64,000 nucleotides of DNA from assembly GCF_024139115.2 (NCBI RefSeq), contig NC_085139.1, positions 67,933,203-67,997,202 of the forward strand, written 5' to 3'. This document shows positions 29,013 to 63,935 of this stretch, in pieces; the first letter of the stretch is position 1; each line of letters opens with the position of its first letter. The translations under genes and the position numbers were made by a program. The notes under the pieces were generated by a model. The model was not told where the DNA came from, did not search any database, and saw nothing but the letters and a program-made list of their open reading frames with translations. This stretch comes from Armigeres subalbatus. Its lineage: Eukaryota; Arthropoda; Insecta; Diptera; Culicidae.

Positions 29013-29017
29013 CCATT

Positions 29018-29205
29018 TGTGAGAGGGTGCTTTATAACCCCATCATATTTTCGTAACGCATAGTATTTATGCACCCCTCCATACGTCCCTGATTTATGCA
29101 CATCGTAGCAGGCATCGACAAAGAGCCGTCCTCTTTCGTATTCGTACTGCCAAGCAAGCAGGTTGTGTGTGCTGGGCGACAGTAGGAGCACAATGTGATT
29201 TCACA
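29018..29205 (+). repeat. 5' LTR
   Basis: 188 bp, TG...CA. It contains CTTTATAACCCC near its start and no clear AATAAA. Same sequence as 37464-37651. Confidence 0.87.
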
Positions 29206-29207
29206 AA

Positions 29208-29225
29208 TGGCGATCCTGCCAGGAG
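29208..29225 (+). promoter_or_regulatory. Primer-binding site, tRNA-Arg type
   Basis: TGGCGATCCTGCCAGGAG lies two bases after the LTR. It is complementary to the CCA-ended 3' terminus of an insect arginine tRNA (ACG anticodon, recalled from memory). Overlapping its end, GCCGCCT / AGGCGGC (29225-29243) forms a 7-bp stem with a 5-nt loop. Confidence 0.82.
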
Positions 29226-29304
29226 CCGCCTTTATTAGGCGGCATTTTCTTCACCGCTTTAAAGTCGCTTTTGCTGTCGCCCATCACACACAAGTACAGT
29301 TCTA

Positions 29305-29463
29305 ATGAAAATGGTGGTTCAACGTGGAAGGAATGTACAATTTTATAAAAAGGTAGGTTCTAATATGCAGAACACAAAACACAACAGAAAACCTAATGAT
29401 ATCTTGCACCTGGCTGAGAGGGATGGCCAGAAGCCTGACAAGAAAGGTAAGTGGCGGGCGTAA
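29305..29463 (+). CDS. Short ORF (52 aa) in the LTR-element leader
   Basis: ATG at 29305 to TAA at 29461-29463. The product is basic and unrecognised, starting MKMVVQRGRNVQFYKK and ending GQKPDKKGKWRA. It lies 80 bp past the primer-binding site, where gag would begin. AAAG|GTAAGT (donor at 29447) sits near its end, so it could be a leader exon or a remnant of a gag start. The ORF is short enough to arise by chance. No homologue is claimed. Confidence 0.25.
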   Translation: MKMVVQRGRNVQFYKKVGSNMQNTKHNRKPNDILHLAERDGQKPDKKGKWRA

Positions 29464-29699
29464 TGTCAGGGTTCCGAGAAATATTAATTGTTATTAACAC
29501 GTACGTCCCCAACCCCCATTTTACGACAAAACTCAAAATTCAAAACCATGCAGCTCAGCCAATTTCTAACGGATTTTCAAGCAATCTTCTGGAATCGATC
29601 ACAAAATTCCTATAGTTTTAGGAACCGAGGTTAATTTTTGTGCAATGGCCATGGTTCCGGAGATATTCCGGGGAGTACTGGGGTTACCTCCCTCCCGGA

Positions 29700-30290
29700 A
29701 AAAATGGTCACTGGCAGATCGGCTTCGAAATCCATCGTGCGACATGTCAAACTTCATGATTTTGCAAAACAAGTACACTAGAGTACACTTCGGCGACTTT
29801 CGATCGAATTGGCCACCCTCCGGGTGCTTCCAGGGCCTGGTTCCCTAGGGGAAGTGGCCAATATCCGTTCAATCTTGGAACCCATCTTGCGGCATGTCAA
29901 ACTTCATGACTTTGCAAAACAAGTACACTGAAGTACATTTCGGCGATTTTCGATCGAATTGGCCACCCTCCGGTTACTTCCAGGGCCTGGTTCCCTTGAG
30001 GAAGTGGCCAATATCCGTTCAACCTTGGAACCCATCTTGCGGCATATCAAACTTCATGATTTTGCAAAACAAGCACACTGGAGTACATTTCGGCGATTTT
30101 CGATTGAATTGGCCACTCTTTGGGTACTTCCAGGGCCTGCTTCTCTTGGGGAAGTGGCCAATATTTGTCCAAGCTTGGAACCCATCTTGCGACATGTCAA
30201 ACTTCATGATTTTGCAAAACAAGTAAACTGGAATCCATTTCGGTAGTTTTCGATCGGATTGGCCACCTTCCGGGTACATCCATGCGCTGA
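29700..30290 (+). repeat. 150-bp satellite, left arm (about 4 units)
   Basis: Units recur every 150 bp (for example ACTTCATGATTTTGCAAAAC at about 29750, 29900 [variant], 30050, 30200). They contain GGCCACCCTCCGGGTGCTTC and CAGGGCCTGGTTCCCT. Since 150 is a multiple of three, frames stay open across units; that does not indicate a protein. Confidence 0.85.
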
Positions 30291-30412
30291 TTGATATTTT
30301 ACTGGTGTTGGCCTGATAGATCATTTGCAGCCAGTGGCGGCGGCGTGGCAGCATCACGCCTTTGGTGATTGGCGGCGGCGTGGTTCGGCGTGAACCAGTT
30401 TCAAGCGCCAAA

Positions 30413-32838
30413 ATTTCTTCAGAAGTATCTCCAGGAATTCTTCCAGAAGTTCCTCTACGAGTTTTTTCAAAAGATCGTCAAGAAATTCCTTTGGACATTC
30501 CTCCAGATATTGCCTCTGGGAAATTCTTCCAGATACTCCTCCCGGATTTCGTCTGGAAGTTCCTTTAGGAAGCTTTTCCAAGAATTCCTCCAGGAATTCC
30601 TACGGAAGTTCCTCCAGGAATTCCTACGGAAGTTCCTCCAGGAATTCCTACGGAAGTTCCTCCAGGAATTCCTACGGAAGTTCCTCCAGGAATTCCTACG
30701 GAAGTTCCTCCAGGAATTCCTACGGAAGTTCCTCCAGGAATTCCTACGGAAGTTCCTCCAGGAATTCCTACGGAAGTTCCTCCAGGAATTCCTTCGGAAG
30801 TTCCTCCAGGAATTCCTTCGGAAGTTCCTCCAGGAATTCCTTCGGAAGTTCCTCCAGGAATTCCTTCGGAAGTTCCTCCAGGAATTCCTATGGAAGTTCC
30901 TCCAGGAATTCCTACGGAAGTTCCTCCAGGAATTCCTACGGAAGTTCCTCCAGGAATTCCTACGGAAGTTCCTCCAGGAATTCCTACGGAAGTTCCTCCA
31001 GGAATTCCTACGGAAGTTCCTCCAGGAATTCCTACGGAAGTTCCTCCAGGAATTCCTACGGAAGTTCCTCCAGGAATTCCTACGGAAGTTCCTCCAGGAA
31101 TTCCTACGGAAGTTCTTCCAGGAATTCCTACGGAAGTTCCTCCAGGAATTCCTACGGAAGTTCCTCCAGGAATTCCTACGGAAGTTCCTCCAGGAATTCC
31201 TACGGAAGTTCCTCCAGGAATTCCTACGGAAGTTCCTCCAGGAATTCCTACGGGGGTTCCTCCAGGAATTCCTACGGGGGTTCCTCCAGGAATTCCTACG
31301 GGGGTTCCTCCAGGAATTCCTACGGGGGTTCCTCCAGGAATTCCTACGGGGGTTCCTCCAGGAATTCCTACGGGGGTTCCTCCAGGAATTCCTACGGGGG
31401 TTCCTCCAGGAATTCCTACGGGGGTTCCTCCAGGAATTCCTACGGGGGTTCCTCCAGGAATTCCTACGGGGGTTCCTCCAGGAATTCCTACGGGGGTTCC
31501 TCCAGGAATTCCTGCAGGAATTCCTACGGAAGTTCCTCCAGGAATTCCTACGGAAGTTCCTCCAGGAATTCCTACGGAAGTTCCTCCAGGAATTCCTACG
31601 GAAGTTCCTCCAGGAATTCCTACGGAAGTTCCTCCAGGAATTCCTACGGAAGTTCCTCCAGCAATTCCTACGGAAGTTCCTCCAGGAATTCCTACGGAAG
31701 TTCCTCCAGGAATTCCTACGGAAGTTCCTCCAGGAATTCCTACGGAAGTTCCTCCAGGAATTCCTACGGAAGTTCCTCCAGGAATTCCTACGGAAGTTCC
31801 TCCAGGAATTCCTCCGGAAGTTCCTCCAGGAACACCTCCGGAAGTTCCTCCAGGAATTCCTCCGGAAGTTTCTCCAGGAACTCCTCCGTAAGTTCCTCCA
31901 GGAATTCCTCCGGAAGTTCCTCCAGGAATTCCCCCGGAAGTTCCTCCAGGAATTCCTCCGGAAGTTCCTCCGGAAGTTCCTCCAGGAATTCTTCCGGAAG
32001 TTCCTCCAGGAATTCTTCCGGAAGTTCCTCCAGGAATTCCTCCGGAAGTTCTTCCAGGAATTCCTCCGGAAATTCCTTCAGGAATTTTTTCCTAAGTTCC
32101 TGCGGAAGTTCCTCCAGGAATTCCCCCGGAAGTTCCTCCAGGAATTCCTCCGGAAGTTCCTCCAGGAATTCCTCCGGAAGTTCTTCCAGGAATTCCTCCG
32201 GAAAATCCTCCAGGAATTCTTTCCAAAGTTCCTCCGGAAGTTCCTCCAGGAATTCATCCGGAAGTTCGTCCATGAGTTCCTCCAGAAGTTCCTCCAGGAA
32301 TTACTCCGGAAGTTTCACCAGGAATTCCTCCGGAATTTCTTCCAGGAATTCCTCCGGAATTTCCTCCAGGAATTCCTCCCGAAGTTCCTCCAGGAATTCC
32401 TCCAGAAGTTCTTTCAGAAATTCCTCCAGGAGTTCTTCAAGGAACTCCTTCGGAAGTTCTTCCAGGAATTCCTCCCGAAGTTCCTCCAGGAGTTCCTCCG
32501 GAAGTTCCTCCAAGAAGTTCCTCCAGTTATTCCTCCGGGAGTTTCTCCAGGAATTCCTCCAGTAATTCCTCTAGAAGTTCCTACATTTATTCCTCCGGAA
32601 GTTCCCCCAGTACTTCCTCCGGAAGTTTTTATAGTAATTCCTCCGGAAGTTCCTTCAGTAATTCCTCCGGATATTCGTACCGGAATTCTTCCGGAAGTTC
32701 CTTCAGGAATTCCTGCCAAAGTTCCTCCGGGAATTCTTCCGGACGTTCCTTCAGGATTTATCCAATATGCTCCACCAGGAATTCCCCCGGAAATTCCTCC
32801 AGGAATTCATCCGGAAAATCCTCCAGAAATTCCTGGAA
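30413..32838 (+). repeat. 24-bp minisatellite array, about 95 units
   Basis: The unit is GGAATTCCTACGGAAGTTCC plus TCCA. Sub-blocks differ at one position set: TACGGAAG units dominate to about 31,240, with a TTCGGAAG run at about 30,790-30,880. A block of eleven TACGGGGG units spans 31,241-31,500, TACGGAAG resumes, then TCCGGAAG and more degenerate units occur from about 31,810. Such homogenised blocks show local amplification. The 905-aa open frame (30369-33086) and its companions in two other frames follow from the stop-free 24-bp unit. Confidence 0.93.
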
Positions 32839-32849
32839 TTCTAGGTGGT

Positions 32850-33200
32850 CAATTCCAGTTTCCAGAGGAAGTCCTGGAGGAACTTCCGGAGCAATTCCTG
32901 GAGGAACTTCTGTTAGTATTCATGGAGAAACCTTCGGAGGAATTCCTGGAGAAACTACCGGAGGAATTCTCGGAGGAACCTCCGGAGGAACTCCTGGAGG
33001 AACTTCCAGATGAATTCCTAGAAGAGCTTCCGGAGGAATTCCTGAAGGAACTTCCAGACGAAATCCAAGAGGAGTTTCTGGAGTAACTTCCCAGAGGCAC
33101 TAACGGAGAAATGTCCAAAGGAATTTCTTGACGATCTTTTTAAAAAAAACTAGTGGAGGAACTTCTGGAAGAATTCCTTGATAAATTTCTGAAGAAATTT
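32850..33200 (-). repeat. Short inverted counterpart of the 24-bp array
   Basis: From about 32,850 the repeat runs in the opposite orientation (GGAGGAACTTCCGGAG, GGAATTCCTGGAG), degenerate, about 14 units. It pairs with the outer part of the left array, so the expansion happened on one arm only. Confidence 0.85.
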
Positions 33201-33319
33201 TGGCGCTTGAACTGGTTTACGCCGATCCACTCCACCGCTGATCACTAACGGCGTGATGCCGCCGCCGCTGCCTGAAAATGATCTATCACGCCACCGCCGG
33301 TAAAGTATCAATCAGCGCA

Positions 33320-34200
33320 CAGGTTTACCTGGAAGTACCCGGAAGGTGGCCAATTCGATCGAAAATCACCGAAATGGACTTCAGTATACTTGTTTTGCAA
33401 AATCATGAAGATTGACATGTCGCAAGATGGGTTCCAAGATTGAACGGATATTGGCCACTTCCCCAAGGGAACCAGGCCCTGGAAGCACCCGGAGGGTGGC
33501 CAATTCGATCGAATGTCGCCGAAATGTACTCCAGTGTACTTGTTTTGCAAAATCATGAAGTTTGATATGTCGCAAAATGGGTTCCAAGATTGGACGGATA
33601 TTGGCCACTTCCCCAAGGGAACCAGGCCCTGGAAGCACCCGAAGGGTGGCCAATTCGATCGAAAGTCGCCGAAATGTACTCCAGTGTACTTGTTTTGCAA
33701 AATCATGAAGTTTGACATACCGCAAAATGGGTTCCAAGATTGAACTGATATTGGCCACTTCCCCAAGGGAACCAGGCCCTGGAAGTAGCCGGAGGGTGGC
33801 CAATTCGATCGAATGTCGCCGAAATGTACTCCAGTGTTCTTGTTTTGCAAAATCATGAAGTTTGATATGTCGCAAGATGGGTTCCAAGATTGGACGGATA
33901 TTGGCCACTTCCCCAAGGGAACCAGGCCCTGGAAGCACCCGGAGGGTGGCCAATTCGACCGAAAGTCGCCGAAATGTACTCCAGTGTACTTGTTTTGCAA
34001 AATCATGAAGTTTGATATGTCGCAAGATGGGTTCCAAGATTGGACGGATATTGGCCACTTCCCCAAGGGAACCAGGCCCTGGAAGCACCCGAAGGGTGGC
34101 CAATTCGATCGAAAGTCGGCGAAATGTACTCCAGTGTGCTTGTTTTGCAAAATCATGAAGTTTGACATGTCGCAAGATGGATTTCGAAGCCGATCTGCCA
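33320..34200 (-). repeat. 150-bp satellite, right arm (about 6 units)
   Basis: Inverse orientation to the left arm. The phrase CGGATATTGGCCACTTCCCC recurs at 33445, 33595, 33745 (variant), 33895 and 34045. The 319-aa and 275-aa antisense frames are products of the 150-bp period. Confidence 0.88.
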
Positions 34201-34452
34201 GTGACCATTTTTTTCGGGAGGGAGGTAACCCCAGTACTCCCCGGAATATCTCCGGAACCATGGCCATTGCAAAAAAAATTGACCTCGGTTCCTACAACTA
34301 TAGGAATTTTGTGATCGATTCCAGAAGATTGCTTGAAAATCCGTTAGAAATTGGCTGAGCAGCGTGGTTTTGAATTTTGAGTTTTGTCGTAAAATGGGGG
34401 TTGGGGACGTACGTGTTAACGGACGGGAGTAATTAATGCTTTTACAATTACT

Positions 34453-36418
34453 AGAGTCAGAGTCACTGGTGTTGGTTTCTCGTAGTTGAAGAAAATCCAA
34501 GTGATCCAGGACTACTGGTTTTGTTTTGCACGGGGAGAGTTCCGGGAGCATCAAATTTTGTTCACTGATTCAATCCGGCAAATGTATCGGAGTCACTGGT
34601 GCTGGCTTCTCACAATTGGAGAAAATGCGAGCGACCCAGGGCTACTGTTTTTGTTTTGCACGGGAAAAATTTCCGGGAGCATTGGAATTTGCTCAATGGT
34701 TTGATCCGGCAAATGTGACGGAGCCACTGGTGCTGGTTTCTCAAATATGAAGAAATGCGAGCACCCAGGGCTACTGTTTTTGTTTTGCACGGGAAAGATT
34801 TCCGGGAGCATTGGAAATTGCTCAATGGTTTTATCCGGCAAATGTGACGGAGCCACTGGTGCTGGTTTCTCATAGATGGAGAAATGCGAGCGACCTAGGG
34901 CTACTGTTTTTGTTTTGCACGGGAAAGATTTCCGGGAGCATTGGAATTTACTCAATGGTTTGATCCGGCAAATGTGACGGAGCCACTGGTTCGGGTTTGC
35001 CTCGTGGAGGGAAAGCGAGCGGCCCACGGCGGCCGCCTTTGTTTTGCACGGGAAAGATTTCCGGGAGCAATGAAATTTGCTCAATGGTTTGATCCGGCAA
35101 ATGTGACGGAGCCACTGGTGCTGGTTTCTCAAAGATGAAGAAATGCGAGCACCCAGGGCTACTGTTTTTGTTTTGCACGGGAAAGATTTCCGGGAGCATT
35201 AGAATTTGCTCAATGGTTTGATCCGGCAAATGTGACGGAGCCACTGGTGCTGGTTTCTCATAGATGGAGAAATGCGAGCGACCCAGGGCTACTGTTTTTG
35301 TTTTGCACGGGAAAGATTTCCGGGAGCATTGGAATTTACTCAATGGTTTGATCCGGCAAATGTGACGGAGCCACTGGTGCTGGTTTCTCATAGATGGAGA
35401 AATGCGAGCGACCCAAGGCTACTGTTTTTGTTTTGCACGGGAAAGATTTCCGGGAGCAATGAAATTCGTTCAATGGTTTGATCCGGCAAATGTGACGGAG
35501 CCACTGGTGCTGGTTTCTCAAATATGAAGAAATGCGAGCACCCAGGGCTACTGTTTTTGTTTTGCACGGGAAAGATTTCCGGGAGCATTGGAAATTGCTC
35601 AATGGTTTTATCCGGCAAATGTGACGGAGCCACTGGTGCTGGTTTCTCATAGATGGAGAAATGCGAGCGACCCAGGGCTACTGTTTTTGTTTTGCACGGG
35701 AAAGATTTCCGGGAGCATTGGAATTTACTCAATGGTTTGATCCGGCAAATGTGACGGAGCCACTGGTGCTGGTTTCTCATAGATGGAGAAATGCGAGCGA
35801 CCCAAGGCTACTGTTTTTGTTTTGCACGGGAAAGATTTCCGGGAGCATTGGAATTTACTCAATGGTTTGATCCGGCAAATGTGACGGAGCCACTGGTGCT
35901 GGTTTCTCATAGATGGAGAAATGCGAGCGACCCAAGGCTACTGTTTTTGTTTTGCACGGGAAAGATTTCCGGGAGCAATGAAATTCGTTCAATGGTTTGA
36001 TCCGGCAAATGTGACGGAGCCACTGGTGCTGGTTTCTCAGTTGGAGAAAAAAGCGAGCGACCTAGGGCTACTGTTTTTGATTTGCACGGGAAATATTTCC
36101 GGGAGCAATGAAGTTTGCTCAATGGTTTGATCCGGCAAATGTGACGGAGCCACTGGTGCTGGTTTCTCAGTTGGGAAAGAGGAAGCGACCTAGGGCTACT
36201 GTTTTTGTTTTGCACGGGAAAGATTTCCGGGAGAAATGAAATTTGCTTAATGGTTTGATCTGGCAAATGTGATGGAACCACTGATTCTGGTTTCTCATAT
36301 GTGGAGAAATGCTAGCGACCCAGGGTTACTATTTTTGTTTTGCACTCGAAAGAGCATTGAAATTCTCTCAATGGTTTGATTCGGCAAATGTGACGGAACC
36401 ACTGGTGCTGGTTTCTCA
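34453..36418 (+). repeat. 130-bp satellite array, about 15 units
   Basis: The unit includes GATCCGGCAAATGTGACGGA, GCCACTGGTGCTGGTTTCTC and TTTGTTTTGCACGGGAAAGA. Period 130 bp is clear at 35661, 35791 and 35921. It starts about 34 bp beyond the TTAA element and is interrupted at 36419 by a hAT-type insertion. Frames up to 179 aa arise because 3 units equal 390 bp. Confidence 0.92.
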
Positions 36419-37141
36419 CTGAGATGAGATAAGACATCTCACTGTTCCTTTTTGAAACCATTTGCCTGTCAGAAAAGGCCAGTTTTGATTGGGAGATTTG
36501 ACAGACGCCGGCAAGCGGAGCGTTGCTTTATTTTGCTGGTGGGTGCTTTGTTATTACTTTCGCGGTGTTGCTAGTAGTCGGGGATTTTCCAACTTCAGTT
36601 TCTAAAGAAACAAGTAAACACGAATAAACGTTTGTTTCATAAATTTCAACGTGAAATAGAATGAATAATAAAAATGTTGTAATCATAGACAGATAAGATA
36701 AGACATCTCACTGTCCCTTTTTGAAACCATTTGCCTGTCAGAAAAGGCCAGTTTTGATTGGGAGATTTGACAGACGCCGGCAAGCGGAGCGTTGCTTTAT
36801 TTTGCTGGTGGGTGCTTTGTTATTACTTTCGCGGTGTTGCTAGTAGTCGGGGATTTTCCAACTTCAGTTTCTAAAGAAACAAGTAAACACGAATAAACGT
36901 TTGTTTCATAAATTTCAACGTGAAATAGAATGAATAATAAAAATGTTGTAATCATAGACAGAACTGCAATCATGAAGTACAAATGAACAGCTCAGCATTC
37001 GGTAATTATTGATTGAACTTTATTCGTCTGGTTAATTTTCGGTTAGTTAAACAATCTGGTCACACTGGAGCTGCCCGTGGCGTGGATTGTTGATAATTTG
37101 TGTGAGGGCATTCAGCTCCGAGATGTCTTATCTCATCTCAG
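36419..37141. mobile_element. 723-bp hAT-type element in the 130-bp satellite (TSD GTTTCTCA)
   Basis: Termini CTGAGATGAGATAAGACATC and complement. The 8-bp duplication GTTTCTCA lies at 36411-36418 and 37142-37149. Inside, a segment of about 269 bp starting AAGACATCTCACTGT is tandemly duplicated (36431 and 36700). No transposase. Confidence 0.9.
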
Positions 37142-37392
37142 GTTTCTCATAGATGGAGAAATGCGAGCGACCCAGGGCTAATGTTTTTGTTTTGCACGGG
37201 AAAGATTTCCGGGAGCATTGAAATTTGCTCAATGGTCTGATCCGAGAATGTGACGGAACCACTGGTGCTGGTTTCTCACAGTTGGAGAAGATGCGAGCGT
37301 CCCAGGGATACTGTTTGTGTTTTGCACCGAGGAGAGTTCCGGGAGCATTGAAGTTTGCTCATTGATTCGATCCGGCAAATGTGCTGGATTCT
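37142..37392 (+). repeat. Remainder of the 130-bp satellite array
   Basis: About two further units resume exactly at the duplicated GTTTCTCA, confirming one array split by the hAT-type element. Confidence 0.88.
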
Positions 37393-37448
37393 CGCTATTG
37401 ATTCCGACGTTTGGTTTTAATTCGTTTTCAACTGAATCAACCTTCTCC

Positions 37449-37463
37449 GGGGAAGTAGAGGGA
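37449..37463 (+). promoter_or_regulatory. Polypurine tract
   Basis: GGGGAAGTAGAGGGA lies immediately before the right LTR, as required for plus-strand priming in LTR retroelements. Confidence 0.75.
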
Positions 37464-37651
37464 TGTGAGAGGGTGCTTTATAACCCCATCATATTTTCGT
37501 AACGCATAGTATTTATGCACCCCTCCATACGTCCCTGATTTATGCACATCGTAGCAGGCATCGACAAAGAGCCGTCCTCTTTCGTATTCGTACTGCCAAG
37601 CAAGCAGGTTGTGTGTGCTGGGCGACAGTAGGAGCACAATGTGATTTCACA
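37464..37651 (+). repeat. 3' LTR
   Basis: 188 bp, no difference seen from the 5' LTR; followed by the CCATT duplication. Confidence 0.87.
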
Positions 37652-37656
37652 CCATT

Positions 37657-50379: not shown

Positions 50380-50785
50380 TACGGAGCCCACGACAACAAA
50401 AAGAATTACTTTAAAGACAAACATAGACCAAGAAGGGGTCACACAACTTGTTAATTTTCAAATAACTGCCTCCATTAGGGAGGTTGATTCATCGACCTTG
50501 ATTCTATGGAGTTCGTAGACTACCTGGAACTCACGACAACAACAAGAACTACTTGAAATACAAAAATATACCAAGAAGATGTCACACGACTTGTGCACTC
50601 TTCGATATCTGTCTCCATTATCGAGGTTGATCCACAGACCATGACTCTTGGAGTTTGTAGACTACCTGGATCCCACAGTAGCAAAAAGAACTACTTGGAA
50701 TACAAACATATACCAAAAAGGGGTCACACAACTTGTTTATTCTTCAATAACTGTTTCCATTACGAAGGTTGAACAACAGACCTTG
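50380..50785 (+). repeat. 142-bp satellite, first part (about 3 units)
   Basis: Unit phrases: TATGGAGTTCGTAGACTACC, GGGGTCACACAACTTGTTTA, AACTGTCTCCATTACGAAGG. Interrupted at 50786 by a LINE. Confidence 0.85.
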
Positions 50786-53567: not shown

Positions 53568-55380
53568 AGACCTTGACTTATGGAGTTCGTAGACTACCTG
53601 GCATCAATGACACCATCATGATCTACTTGGAATACAAGTATATACCTAGAAGGGGTCACACAATTTGTTTATTCTTCAATAACTGTTTCCATTACGCAGG
53701 TTGAACAACAGACCTTTACTTATGGAGTTCGTAGACTATCTGAAGCCCACGACAACAACAAGAACTACTTGGAATACAAATATATACCAAGAAGGGGTTA
53801 CACAACTTGTTTATTTACCAATAACTGTCTCTATTACGAAGGTTGATCAACAGACCTTGACTCTATGGAGTTCGTTGACTATCTGGCATCAATGACAACA
53901 TCAAGAACTACGAGGAATACAAACATATACCCAGAAGGGGTCATACAACTTGTTTATTCCTCAGTAACTGCCTCCATTACGGAGGTTGATGCACAGACTT
54001 TAACTTCATGGAATCCTGGTGCCCAAGACAACAACAAGAAGTACTTGGAATATGAATATATAGCAAGAAGGGGTTACATAACTTGTTAATTCTCAAATAA
54101 CTGTCTTCATTACTAGGGTTGATCAACAGACCTTGACTCTATGGAGTTCGTAGACTACCTGACATCAATAACAACATCAAAAACTACAACGAATACAAAC
54201 ATATACCAAAAAGGGGTCACACAACTTGTTTATTTTCAAATAACTCCATCTATTACGGAGGTTGATCCACAGACCGTGACTATATGGAGTTCGTAGACTA
54301 CCTGGCATCAATGACAACATTGAGATCTACTTGGAATACAAATATATACCCAGAAGGGATCACACAACTTGTTTATTTTCAAATAACTGCATCTATTACG
54401 GAGGTTGATCCACAGACCGTGACTCTATGGAGTTCGTAGACTATCTGGACCCCACGACAACAACAAGAACTACTTGGAATACAAATATATGCCAAGAAGG
54501 GGTTACACAGCTTGTTTATTCTCCAATAACTGTCTTTATTACAAAGGTTGATCAACAGACCTTGACTTTATGGAGTTCGTAGACTACCTGGCATCAATGA
54601 CAACATCAAGAACTACAAGGAATACAAACATATACCCAGAAGGGGTCATACAACTTGTTTATTCTTCAATAACTGCCTCAATTACTGAGATTAATCCACA
54701 GACCTTGACTCTATGGAGTTCGTAGACTACCTGAAGCCCACGACAATAACAAGAACTACTAGGAATACAAACATATACCTTGTCTTTATGGAGTTCGTGG
54801 ACTACCTGGAGCCCACGAGAACACAAGAACTACTTGGAATACAAATATATACCAAGAAGGGGTTACACAACTTGTTTTTTCTCCAATAACTGTCTCCATT
54901 GCGAAAATTGATCAACAGGCCTTGACCCTATGGAGTTCGTAGACTACCTGACATAAATAACAATATCAAGAAGAACAAGGAATACAAACATATACCTAGA
55001 AGGGGTCACATAATTTGTTTATTCTTCAATATCTACCTCCATTACGGAGGTTGATCCACAGACCTTGACTCTATGGAGTTCGTAGACTACCTGGAGCCTA
55101 CGACAACAACAAGAACTACTTGGAATACAAACATATACCAAGAAGGGGTTACACAACTTGTTTATTCTCCAATAACTGCCTCCGTTACGAAGGTCAATTA
55201 TCAGACCTTGACTCTGTGAAATTCGTAGACTTCCTGGAGCCCACAACAACAACAAGAACTACTTGGAATACAAACATATACCAAAAAGGGGTCACACAAC
55301 TTGTTTATTCTTCAATAACTGTCTCCATTACGAAGGATGATCAACAGACCTTGACTGTGTGGAGTTCGTAGATCATGACA
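53568..55380 (+). repeat. 142-bp satellite, second part (about 12 units)
   Basis: Period 141-143 bp (GGAGTTCGTAGACTA at 53582, 53724, 53866 and so on), with one shortened unit near 54,780. Frames such as 53701-53895 and 55120-55371 are repeat artefacts. Continuous with 50380-50785 before the LINE insertion. Confidence 0.88.
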
Positions 55381-57293: not shown

Positions 57294-58300
57294 TCAAACA
57301 TCCATATGATCCAATATCCAGTTCAAGTGATAACCGACCATCACTCCCACTCCAGGCTGTTTCATTTCAACAGTACAAACACCCGAACCACCAGAAATCA
57401 CCGCAAACAGAACGTACCGGTAGCCCTTTCCAATGGGTACCACTGCCTGCATCGGTCCTCCCGAATCCCCTCGACAATGCCCCTCCGCATGGTTGCCTCT
57501 CACGCAGCACGTTGACTCGCCTTCACAGAAGCTGGTCCTCCGCACAATGCTCAAATCCGCTTCCAGTAAAACGTTCGATGGCTCTTGGTGCTCGGTCATA
57601 CCCCATCCCGTCACAGTCATTTTGGTGGGCTTCAGCATTAGCAGGCTCTCGGTCAGCGGAAGGCATATTGGATAGATCTCCCCTTCGCTCAGAGTCGCTT
57701 CCTGTTGCAGTTCCACTAACGCAATGTCATAATCAGAGTCTCGTCCGTTGAAGTTCTCGTTCGGAATAAGTTGGGCGATTCCGTAGTCCCTAGTTTGGGC
57801 CGCACAGCCATTTGAATCGCAATCAGGATTGCTGCTGGTGTCATATTCCCCGAGTCGTACGGCAATGGGCTTCAAAGAGCCCTGCATGCAATGCGCAGAG
57901 GTGAGGACGTACCTTGGATGAATCAAAGACCCACTGCACAGGCTCACCATCCTGCCGCGCTTCTGATAGAGCAGATTGGCCATCCATGGATTTTGTCCCA
58001 AGCCGGCTTCGTTTCCTTTCAGTATGCGATTGGTGAAGGGAATTCGGCCGCACCGGGACAGTCCCAGTTTGGCAGCTTTTTGATTCCGGATGAAGATGTG
58101 CTTCTTGGTGGTTGGTTTGGCGCAACAAATTGAATTACCATTCGAGGCATCCGATTTGCAGCGGCTGGCGTGCACAAAATCAGCCAGTTTGCGATCGTGC
58201 GTGATCCGTTGGTCGAGGAATGCTGAGTGAATGTGGTCGCAGTGCCGGACAGGGACGCAGAAACCGGGTTCGTCGTTTGGGTCATGGCACGGCGGGAAAG
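57294..58300 (-). CDS. CLIP protease exon 4 (CLIP3 and protease domain)
   Basis: Acceptor TTTGCCCACAG|CT; stop at 57294. Begins FPPCHDPNDEPGFC (CLIP3) and carries the whole catalytic domain. The open frame extending upstream to 58385 (MFHKSQKSFEV...) is intron read-through. Confidence 0.92.
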
Positions 58301-59129
58301 CTGTGGGCAAAGAGTAAAACGATTGATGCAAAATTAAGTTGAAGAAGTGAAACACTTCGAAGGATTTTTGTGATTTGTGAAACATGTCGAAAATGCGTCT
58401 CGAAATGGCAACAACTAGTGAATATACTATAAAAATGCATGAAAAAGTGACAAATCTCAGATTGATTTTAAAATAAATTCGACTGATTCAAGAAAAAGTG
58501 TTCACCTACCGTTTTTTACTCTCAAAACTCGATCTTCATCTTTTTTAGGAGTCTCTGATTTCTGAGGTTCGTTAACGTAGACATCAGGGCAGCAGTAAAA
58601 ATTCTACAAAAGAAAAATAAAAGTTGACCTTCAGATTCCCAACAGAGTATTAAAGTAACTTACCTTTCCATCGTTCACATTTTGGAAGCACACATTCTCC
58701 GCCAGTTCTTTGTCATAGACGGCATTGCGTCGTCGTCTTAGTCCGAGGTACCGCTTGATCGGAGTGCAGTGTTCCGGGGCGACACACTTCCCCTCCAACG
58801 GTTGCTGTGATGTAGTGAAACAACGCTTTCCCAAACTGGTTCTCTCTGGTTCACAGCAAACCCGCGCTTCCTGACCGGGTTCATGACAAGTCCTGGACCA
58901 AACGTACTCGTACAGCGAATTGTTACGATAGACGCTTCCCGTTTCGATGGCGTCCTGAATATGCGGACAATAGCGCACCGGAACGCATTGCTCCTTCGTC
59001 ACGGCACACTTGTTGGCGGAAACTACAAAAAGGAATTCGAATTTTGGTTACTTTAAAATCTGTTTCTAAACTAATCTACTTACCCAACAGTACCAGCGAC
59101 GAAAGTAAAACTATTTTGAATGCGAACAT
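57294..59129 (-). CDS. Secreted serine protease with three CLIP domains (complete gene, 4 exons)
   Basis: Joining 59129-59084, 59022-58664, 58603-58510 and 58300-57294 gives 501 residues, with GT-AG at every intron. Residues 1-17 are a signal peptide. Three CLIP domains follow, each with six cysteines: 21/28/34/61/71/72, 83/95/101/127/139/140 and 171/181/187/214/225/226. A linker Cys250 precedes the cleavage site NR|ILKGNEAG (258/259). The chymotrypsin-fold domain has His303 (TSAHC), Asp358 (YDIAL) and Ser446 (CRGDSGGP), so it should be active. At the position that determines trypsin specificity (chymotrypsin 189) it has Gly440, not Asp. CLIP proteases act as zymogens in haemolymph cascades (melanisation, Toll, clotting). 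Three CLIPs is uncommon. Exact orthologue unknown. Confidence 0.93.
58510..58603 (-). CDS. CLIP protease exon 3 (end of CLIP2 and linker)
   Basis: 94 bp, TTTTGTAG|AAT to AACG|GTAGGT. Encodes NFYCCPDVYVNEPQ (the closing CC pair of CLIP2) and a Lys/Glu/Asp-rich linker. It has no internal Met, so it is easy to miss. Confidence 0.9.
58664..59022 (-). CDS. CLIP protease exon 2 (CLIP1 and most of CLIP2)
   Basis: Acceptor TTTTGTAG|TT, donor AAG|GTAAGT; 359 bp. Encodes CLIP1 and CLIP2 up to ENVCFQNVNDGK. The frame continuing past 58664 to a stop is intronic. Confidence 0.9.
59084..59129 (-). CDS. CLIP protease exon 1 (signal peptide)
   Basis: ATG at 59129; MFAFKIVLLSSLVLL plus one base of a split Val codon, then G|GTAAGT. 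This start is chosen because it gives a signal peptide and joins in phase to Cys21. Confidence 0.88.
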
Positions 59130-63036: not shown

Positions 63037-63935
63037 TTATGTTTTTTTATTGTCTTTATTAATGAGGTTTTCGGCACCGCCTTCTTGATAGATGCGTTTC
63101 AGACGTTGTTTAGCAAGGCCAAACACAATTTCAATTGGATTGTACATGGGACAGTAAGGGGGCAGGAAAATCGGGATTATTCCAAGAGAGCGTAGGTAAT
63201 AAACTATCATTGGGTCGCAATGAATACGAGCACCATCCAAAATCCACAAAGAGTGCATTCCTGGATGGCGTTCCACTTCACTCGAATTGGTTACATACTT
63301 GCGACAGCACTCAAAAAATTTGGTGCGATTGAATGTGCCTTCTGTACTGAATACTTCCTGCATTCCGTTTTGTCCAACGAAGCACAACAAGGACATTCTA
63401 GGCTTTCTGATGAACTCTCCGATGCACAGGAGAAGAAGATTATGATACTCCCATTGGAGTCCATTTAGTTCCTCCCAGAATCGAAGAATATCATCAGAAC
63501 GAATCTGCATTGCCCGCCTTTCAAGTGTTTTCCTTGTGAATCCTGCATGATGCAGAATCCGACAAACTGATGCTGCTGAAATAGTTATATTGAATGTCTG
63601 CTGGAACAATTGCTTTGCTTCATCCAAATAAAGCGTTGGATGCTTCCGGTATAATTCCACGACCCAATTAACCTTTTCAGTACCGAACTTTTTTTTCATC
63701 GCGCAAGTACTGCTTTCGGGAGAAAAAATCATTTTTTTGTATATTTTGAGATCCAATTCGAAATTGTAGAAATATGTTTGTGATAAATTGAACTTAGTTT
63801 TGCTTTTGAGAATCCAAGAAAGAAATATCCGTAAAGTGCGTGATACACAGTATTAACTGAAGCTCGACGCCTCGTTACTTCCTGAATAATAATATCACCC
63901 ATTTTAATTAAAATCCTCGTTAAAATCAGTAACAC
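63037..63935 (-). pseudogene. IS630/Tc1/mariner-type transposase, frameshifted and deleted
   Basis: The N-terminal part (63935-63729, better start MGDIII at 63902) contains a helix-turn-helix (GFSKAKLSSIYHKHISTISN). A run of seven A (63738-63732) shifts the frame; the 239-aa frame 63756-63037 then continues with a second HTH-like region (ITISAASVCRILHHAGFTRK) and the catalytic core. The second acidic residue is in WILDGARIHCD and the third in PMYNPIEIVFGLAKQRL (DDE_3 type). The segment with the first Asp is missing: LLLLCI runs straight into GEFIRKPR where relatives have an Asp-Glu motif and about 25 more residues. The enzyme should be inactive. Inverted ends were not located; the element may extend past the window. 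Confidence 0.8.

Follow-up and report, generated by a model that had tools for sequence, protein, structure and literature searches.

Long terminal repeat (LTR) retroelements that lack coding sequence and carry tandem repeats have been described in a mosquito. The accessible part of Marsano et al. (2012; PMC3286476) lists 38 such families in Culex quinquefasciatus, 11 of them with an Arg primer-binding site (PBS) and seven of those 11 with LTRs of 170–200 bp, and suggests that the repeats may spread by passive retrotransposition. The Armigeres genome paper (PMC12333114), in its accessible part, treats LTR elements in bulk. The element analyzed here occupies positions 29018–37651 of a 64,000-nucleotide stretch of the Armigeres subalbatus genome (hereafter the window; NC_085139.1, 67,933,203–67,997,202, forward strand). 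Its copy in the window is designated W and lies on C1; relatives are labeled L009 and so on, and the genome searched for them comprises 1.336 Gb. A first-pass annotation had read the interval as a single recent 8.6-kb LTR retroelement with a satellite-filled interior in place of gag-pol, and had considered it unusual in a mosquito, a view that the 38 families listed in Culex do not bear out. The overall explanation favored here, with a probability of roughly 88%, is that a codeless LTR retroelement spreads its own ~130-bp tandem array by retrotransposition, and that a foldback transposon became nested in W later.

The window copy and its LTR family

The two LTRs of W (TG..CA, 188 bp, + strand; 29018–29205 and 37464–37651) are identical at 188/188 positions, the identity ending exactly at both LTR edges, and they are bracketed by the target site duplication (TSD) CCATT at 29013–29017 and 37652–37656. 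The leader (29206–29493, +) has no conserved open frame and includes the 18-nt PBS TGGCGATCCTGCCAGGAG (29208–29225, +), which begins 2 nt past the 5' LTR and which we take to match the 3' end of tRNA-Arg; ARAGORN finds no tRNA gene within the window. A tail common to members (37384–37463, +) ends in the purine tract GGGGAAGTAGAGGGA (37449–37463), which in W directly adjoins the 3' LTR. All the features that the first-pass annotation had listed, namely two identical LTRs, CCATT, PBS, purine tract, foldback, three repeat families and hAT-type insert, are present where it had placed them. Its outer ends for the element are likewise correct; the single 8.6-kb unit is not, since it consists of a retroelement of 3,712 bp, hAT-type insert included, a foldback of 4,918 bp and an additional TTAA. 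The corresponding length of L009 is 3,555 bp.

Chance does not account for the landmarks of W, because relatives that share its ends and are flanked by exact 5-bp TSDs of their own are present at other genomic sites. The LTR search scored 40 of 136 candidates, and 20 stretches were fetched, all of which except L028 fall into the groups that follow. Two LTRs are found in 13 copies (W, L009–L018, L023 and L027), some of whose LTRs are incomplete, while that of L010 is interrupted. An exact 5-bp TSD flanks 10 of the 12 two-LTR relatives, with the LTR edge read 2 bases over in L013 and 1 base over in L023; the TSD of L027 agrees at 4/5 bases, and L012, whose left LTR is incomplete, shows no TSD match. 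Three further copies (L021, L022 and L026) have LTR, PBS, leader and monomers with no second LTR match within the fetched stretch. Solo LTRs, each bracketed by an exact TSD of 5 bp, account for four others (L019, GCACT; L020, ACTTC; L024, AGATT; L025, GTAGA). Ends, PBS, leader start, array, tail and 5-bp TSDs are common to the members examined. The LTRs of a copy differ from each other at 0/188 positions in W and at 1–2 of 198 in L014–L016.

Among the fetched two-LTR copies, all 13 of them, inspection of the longest open frames on both strands reveals no gag-pol of their own. When the copia nested in L017, the 24-bp arrays (W and L010) and an unscanned 260-codon antisense frame of L010 are set aside, the longest frame has 196 codons; Pfam scans detect no retroelement domain in the longest sense frame of any of L010, L012, L013 and L018. 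The sole pol found among the copies examined belongs to the copia nested in L017. This Ty1/copia element (L017:2406–7171) has LTRs 98% identical to each other, the TSD CGACC and gag/pol domains; as the autonomous partner of the family it is ruled out by its own 269-bp LTRs, its TSD CGACC and its different PBS. An antisense frame matching DUF5641, presumably a domain of BEL/Pao elements, lies in the stretch of L052 that is without monomers and is taken for a nested piece. Gag-pol-bearing, array-free copies, which the first-pass annotation had named as evidence that would speak against its reading, are absent from the 13.

With two TG..CA LTRs and a short TSD, a PBS and purine tract, and no gag-pol in its members, the family falls among non-autonomous LTR retrotransposons, the class of terminal-repeat retrotransposons in miniature (TRIMs) and large retrotransposon derivatives (LARDs). 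It lies outside the strict TRIM limit of less than 1 kb, since 12/13 two-LTR members are longer and only L027 is shorter (830 bp). The 5-bp TSD alone is not decisive for assignment to BEL/Pao, copia or gypsy. Identity as a retrozyme was rejected on the absence of Rfam matches: the LTRs have none at E up to 1, a hammerhead ribozyme included, and none reaches curated scores inside the element in L009, L011, L014, L017 and L027. The window as a whole has 20 Rfam matches, every one of them within or next to the 24-bp array and short of the curated scores. Outside the LTR element, L014:3994–4111 (−) matches the drz-agam-1 self-cleaving ribozyme above the curated score.

The 5' signals are alike across members, comprising U5, the PBS, a hairpin next to the PBS (GCCGCC-TTTATTA-GGCGGC; 29225–29243, +) and a leader stretch complementary to U5 (29163–29182, +, pairs at 19/20 positions with leader 29274–29293). 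The hairpin mostly varies on both sides jointly, from GCCGCC/GGCGGC to GCCACC/GGTGGC, with a wobble form GCCGCC/GGTGGC; one pair is broken in each of L027 and L052, and the U5-complementary stretch is wholly or partly missing in L012, L027 and L053. The kept signals would fit selection exerted by reverse-transcription machinery that is provided in trans. Two splice-donor-like motifs (AGGTAGGTT and AAGGTAAGTGG) in the leader at 29350–29455 are kept in L009, L010, L052 and L053, and the small frames shift. A conserved leader protein was considered and rejected, as L052 and L053 do not retain the small frames.

The array and its passenger

The array of W (34460–37383, +) has 18 monomer matches and is split by the hAT-type insert; Tandem Repeats Finder calls the 130-bp array at 34460–36418. 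Monomers of ~130 bp lie between leader and tail in all 13 two-LTR copies, with 2–20 in each, so that this part of the satellite-filled interior proposed in the first-pass annotation is intrinsic to the family. An 89-bp monomer form that is missing an internal stretch makes up the majority in L014, L015, L017 and L018 and is present three times in L016. Searching the genome with the repeat yields, among the matches listed, 37 array clusters, 26 of which have an LTR or leader match at most 3.6 kb away. The leader search adds 17 loci (L052–L068), and 15 of these, six being already counted copies, carry monomers in the stretch examined; the two without are L052 and L068.

Array length and order are labile despite nearly equal LTRs, the counts of the 89-bp form in L014–L018 being 15, 14, 3, 9 and 16. 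When monomers are labeled at 96.5% identity, with a slash for the position of the hAT-type insert, the order is A B C D E C D F C D D F G H I J / K L in W, A B C D M C D F N O S H I J / K L in L010, and A C D M D F C F C F N O P Q H I J / K R in L009. The array ends are constant, except for the last monomer of L009, and the middles differ by whole monomers. Template switching during reverse transcription is the favored source of this shuffling.

The insert within the array is a miniature inverted-repeat transposable element (MITE; 36419–37141, +, 723 bp) flanked by the 8-bp duplication GTTTCTCA at 36411–36418 and 37142–37149. The 8-bp TSD and a short perfect terminal inverted repeat of 22 bp are those of hAT elements, and the class assignment rests on these two features. 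All three copies of the closest subfamily, which lie on C1 (W), C2 (L009) and C3 (L010), have the MITE at one and the same monomer and share its GTTTCTCA duplication. Their outer TSDs are different (CCATT, GGGTC and ATTCC, respectively), as are their immediate flanks. The MITE measures 453 bp in L009 and L010; its greater length in W is due to a stretch of about 269 bp that is tandemly duplicated within it. One MITE insertion followed by retrotransposition explains the three copies, which three independent insertions at one base do not. Because the MITE sits in the same monomer at three chromosomal sites with three TSDs, array and MITE moved together by retrotransposition. The reading of a recent, complete LTR element that is without gag-pol and spreads tandem repeats is therefore upheld, with the 130-bp array family-wide and the MITE common to three sites.

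Leader changes and the nested foldback

Changes private to W were scored by comparison with L009 and L010 over the segments that align one-to-one, which sets aside the shuffled array middle. Of the 11 private changes in the 288-base leader of W, 10 are A-to-G and lie in the interval 29313–29471 (+). A further private A-to-G is found at 34429, just beyond the foldback. The other segments (LTR, array start, monomers H–J, and the 3' block from MITE to tail) total about 1,400 bases and have 4 private changes, that one included. At the 10 leader sites the outgroups have A in 10/10 (L053) and 9/10 (L052). None of the changed As follows a G, which is weak evidence when taken alone, since only 15/100 As are so placed. 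The opposite strand of the window matches the leader only at the 20-nt U5 stretch in both LTRs, and a source of double-stranded RNA is not evident there.

Whether the leader of W is a fossil of an RNA hyper-edited by ADAR on the sense strand, still reverse transcribed and integrated, while the array acts as a template-switching cassette that takes satellites and a DNA transposon to new chromosomes, is a proposal for which the case is evenly balanced. Recombination with a diverged subfamily is a rather doubtful, though possible, alternative source of the A-to-G block: arrays of the family are reshuffled between copies and one private leader change is T-to-G, yet the proportion of 10/11 A-to-G in the leader has no counterpart in the 5' parts of L014–L018 (0/18 private changes) or in the 3' block of L009 (5 A-to-G and 10 G-to-A among 27). 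If A-to-G made up 0.2, 0.25 or 0.33 of changes, the probability of at least 10/11 by chance would be about 1e-6, 8e-6 or 1e-4, respectively.

The foldback DNA transposon (29498–34415, 4,918 bp) separates this leader from a leader/array junction (34420–34459, +) that is unbroken with the leader in sister copies, and it is flanked by TTAA at 29494–29497 and 34416–34419. Its arms align at 92.9% over 790 bp. Within it Tandem Repeats Finder locates 150-bp repeats in the left arm (29732–30282, +) and right arm (33328–34180, −), and a 24-bp repeat array between them (30537–32834, +) with a weaker inverted tail (32860–33073); a 905-codon open frame (30369–33086) mainly crosses the 24-bp array. Both sisters, L009 and L010, have an empty TTAA site and are continuous through TTATTAACGGACGG. 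A search with the foldback end gives 1,042 candidate places, of which 40 were scored; all 39 besides W match at 98–100% identity. Of the 40 matches, 23 begin exactly at TTAA and the others no more than 6 bases ahead of it. Because the sister sites are empty and the ends recur at 98–100% identity, the foldback, repeats of 150 and 24 bp included, is a nested transposon that is both young and common, and the inverted satellites are part of it and not of the retroelement. The interiors of the sister copies carry the ~130-bp array and lack the inverted satellites. The TTAA duplication is that of piggyBac-type transposons; as it is the sole basis at hand, the foldback is not classed as piggyBac.

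An older arrival, with foldback and satellites already in the RNA of the element and retrotransposed together so that the 8.6-kb unit is one mobile cargo carrier, is improbable. Foldback and satellites do lie between identical LTRs, and A-to-G changes flank the foldback on both sides, at a minimum distance of 23 bp on the left and 14 bp on the right. However, the foldback is missing from both sisters, and its end is 100% identical (rounded) over 240 bp to one other end in the genome, where candidate places are numerous. Its arms moreover show no clear A-to-G bias (22 vs 17), unlike the adjoining leader, and editing would be expected to favor a folded RNA arm. The interpretation as retroelement cargo was rejected on these three grounds, and the lack of a visible A-to-G effect in the foldback fits its later arrival. 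Further arrays of the 24-bp type occur at 45.5–46.3 kb of the window and in several fetched flanks. The 5' LTR of L010 is broken by a ~3.15-kb insert with a long array of this type like that of the W foldback, only the array being seen in common.

It is very improbable that an ordinary gag-pol element decayed and gained the repeats later through separate insertions. Small open frames and splice-donor-like motifs are retained in the leader of the closest subfamily, yet the small frames are lost in L052 and L053 and the same monomer family lies between leader and tail in 13/13 two-LTR members. An assembly artefact joining unrelated repeats is the least credible alternative since, although tandem arrays are hard to assemble and reads were not part of the evidence, two sisters on other chromosomes with other TSDs likewise run from LTR through leader, array and MITE to tail.

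Mechanism and comparison with known systems

Under the explanation favored here, a codeless element spreading its own array, RNA polymerase II would transcribe the element from the LTR, an autonomous element yet to be identified would provide Gag, reverse transcriptase and integrase, and tRNA-Arg would prime synthesis. Template jumps between like monomers would then grow, shrink and shuffle the array. The MITE would first have entered the array of an ancestor, copies of which then spread; one RNA would next have been edited from A to I in the leader, reverse transcribed and integrated at CCATT; and the young TTAA-targeting foldback transposon would last have entered the leader/array junction of W.

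Several observations weigh against this explanation or parts of it. Among the matches listed (the best 40 each), 11/37 array clusters have no LTR or leader match within 3.6 kb, one of them having a leader match 4.0 kb away, and free-standing arrays may be among them. Unequal exchange in DNA could explain the array shuffling equally well. No autonomous partner was found, in a genome search aimed at one that was largely incomplete. The A-to-G signature comes from one copy, and the array middle lies outside the comparison. The description as young fits L009 less well, 5/6 changes between its own LTRs being on one side. A consensus fold of 31 monomers is stable relative to 100 column shuffles (z −6.1), with the reverse strand nearly as stable, and in a covariation test against a tree-based null (53 monomers, 60 simulations) the best pair has E about 3. 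In view of the reverse-strand stability and the covariation result, conservation of an RNA fold in the monomer is unsupported.

Elsewhere in the window, a separate ~143-bp tandem array occurs at 53568–55372 and 50383–50782. A frame at 57294–59047 (−) encodes a CLIP-domain trypsin-like serine protease and is accompanied by a second CLIP piece, and a frame at 63037–63852 (−) with a DDE_3 match and a sub-threshold winged-helix match is perhaps a remnant of a Tc1/mariner-like transposase.

The known systems are compared here as the accessible parts of the cited papers describe them. The cqUNK elements of Culex (PMC3286476) resemble the Armigeres family in having no coding sequence, near-identical LTRs, a clear PBS and purine tract, tandem repeats bracketed by the LTRs and, where given, mostly 5-bp TSDs; no master copy was found for them, nor, provisionally, for the Armigeres family. 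The host is different, and the likeness is one of description, with no descent claimed. The cqUNK repeats are, according to their authors, not family-specific, whereas one monomer family is present in the 13 two-LTR copies here. TRIMs such as PbTRIM of ants (PMC3532108; Kojima 2024, PMC10886601) likewise have two LTRs, a PBS and a purine tract and no genes; the Armigeres members differ in exceeding 1 kb in 12/13 cases and in a TSD of 5 bp, compared with 4 bp in PbTRIM (PMC3532108). Plant Retand elements (PMC11963269) also carry tandem arrays within an LTR element near the 3' LTR, in their case between pol and 3' LTR, but they usually have gag-pol, with some non-autonomous members, and reside in plant hosts. 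The nested foldback is similar by description to Tetris of Drosophila virilis (PMC4079207), which has long inverted repeats with internal tandem repeats, and is distinguished from it by the TTAA duplication and by 150-bp repeats in place of repeats of about 220 bp. Among the open-access papers listed in literature searches, no title or abstract opening names this LTR family or, for LTR elements of insects, an ADAR scar.

The kind of element is thus already known from Culex, and what is newer is the shuffling of array middles between close copies and the A-to-G cluster in the leader, suggesting an ADAR-edited template. The latter is a possible sign of ADAR acting on retrotransposon RNA in mosquitoes, and the close copies with differing arrays provide material for testing the mechanism of array shuffling. 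The shared passenger with its differing TSDs shows an LTR element spreading a tandem array, the possibility that the authors of the Culex study had proposed.

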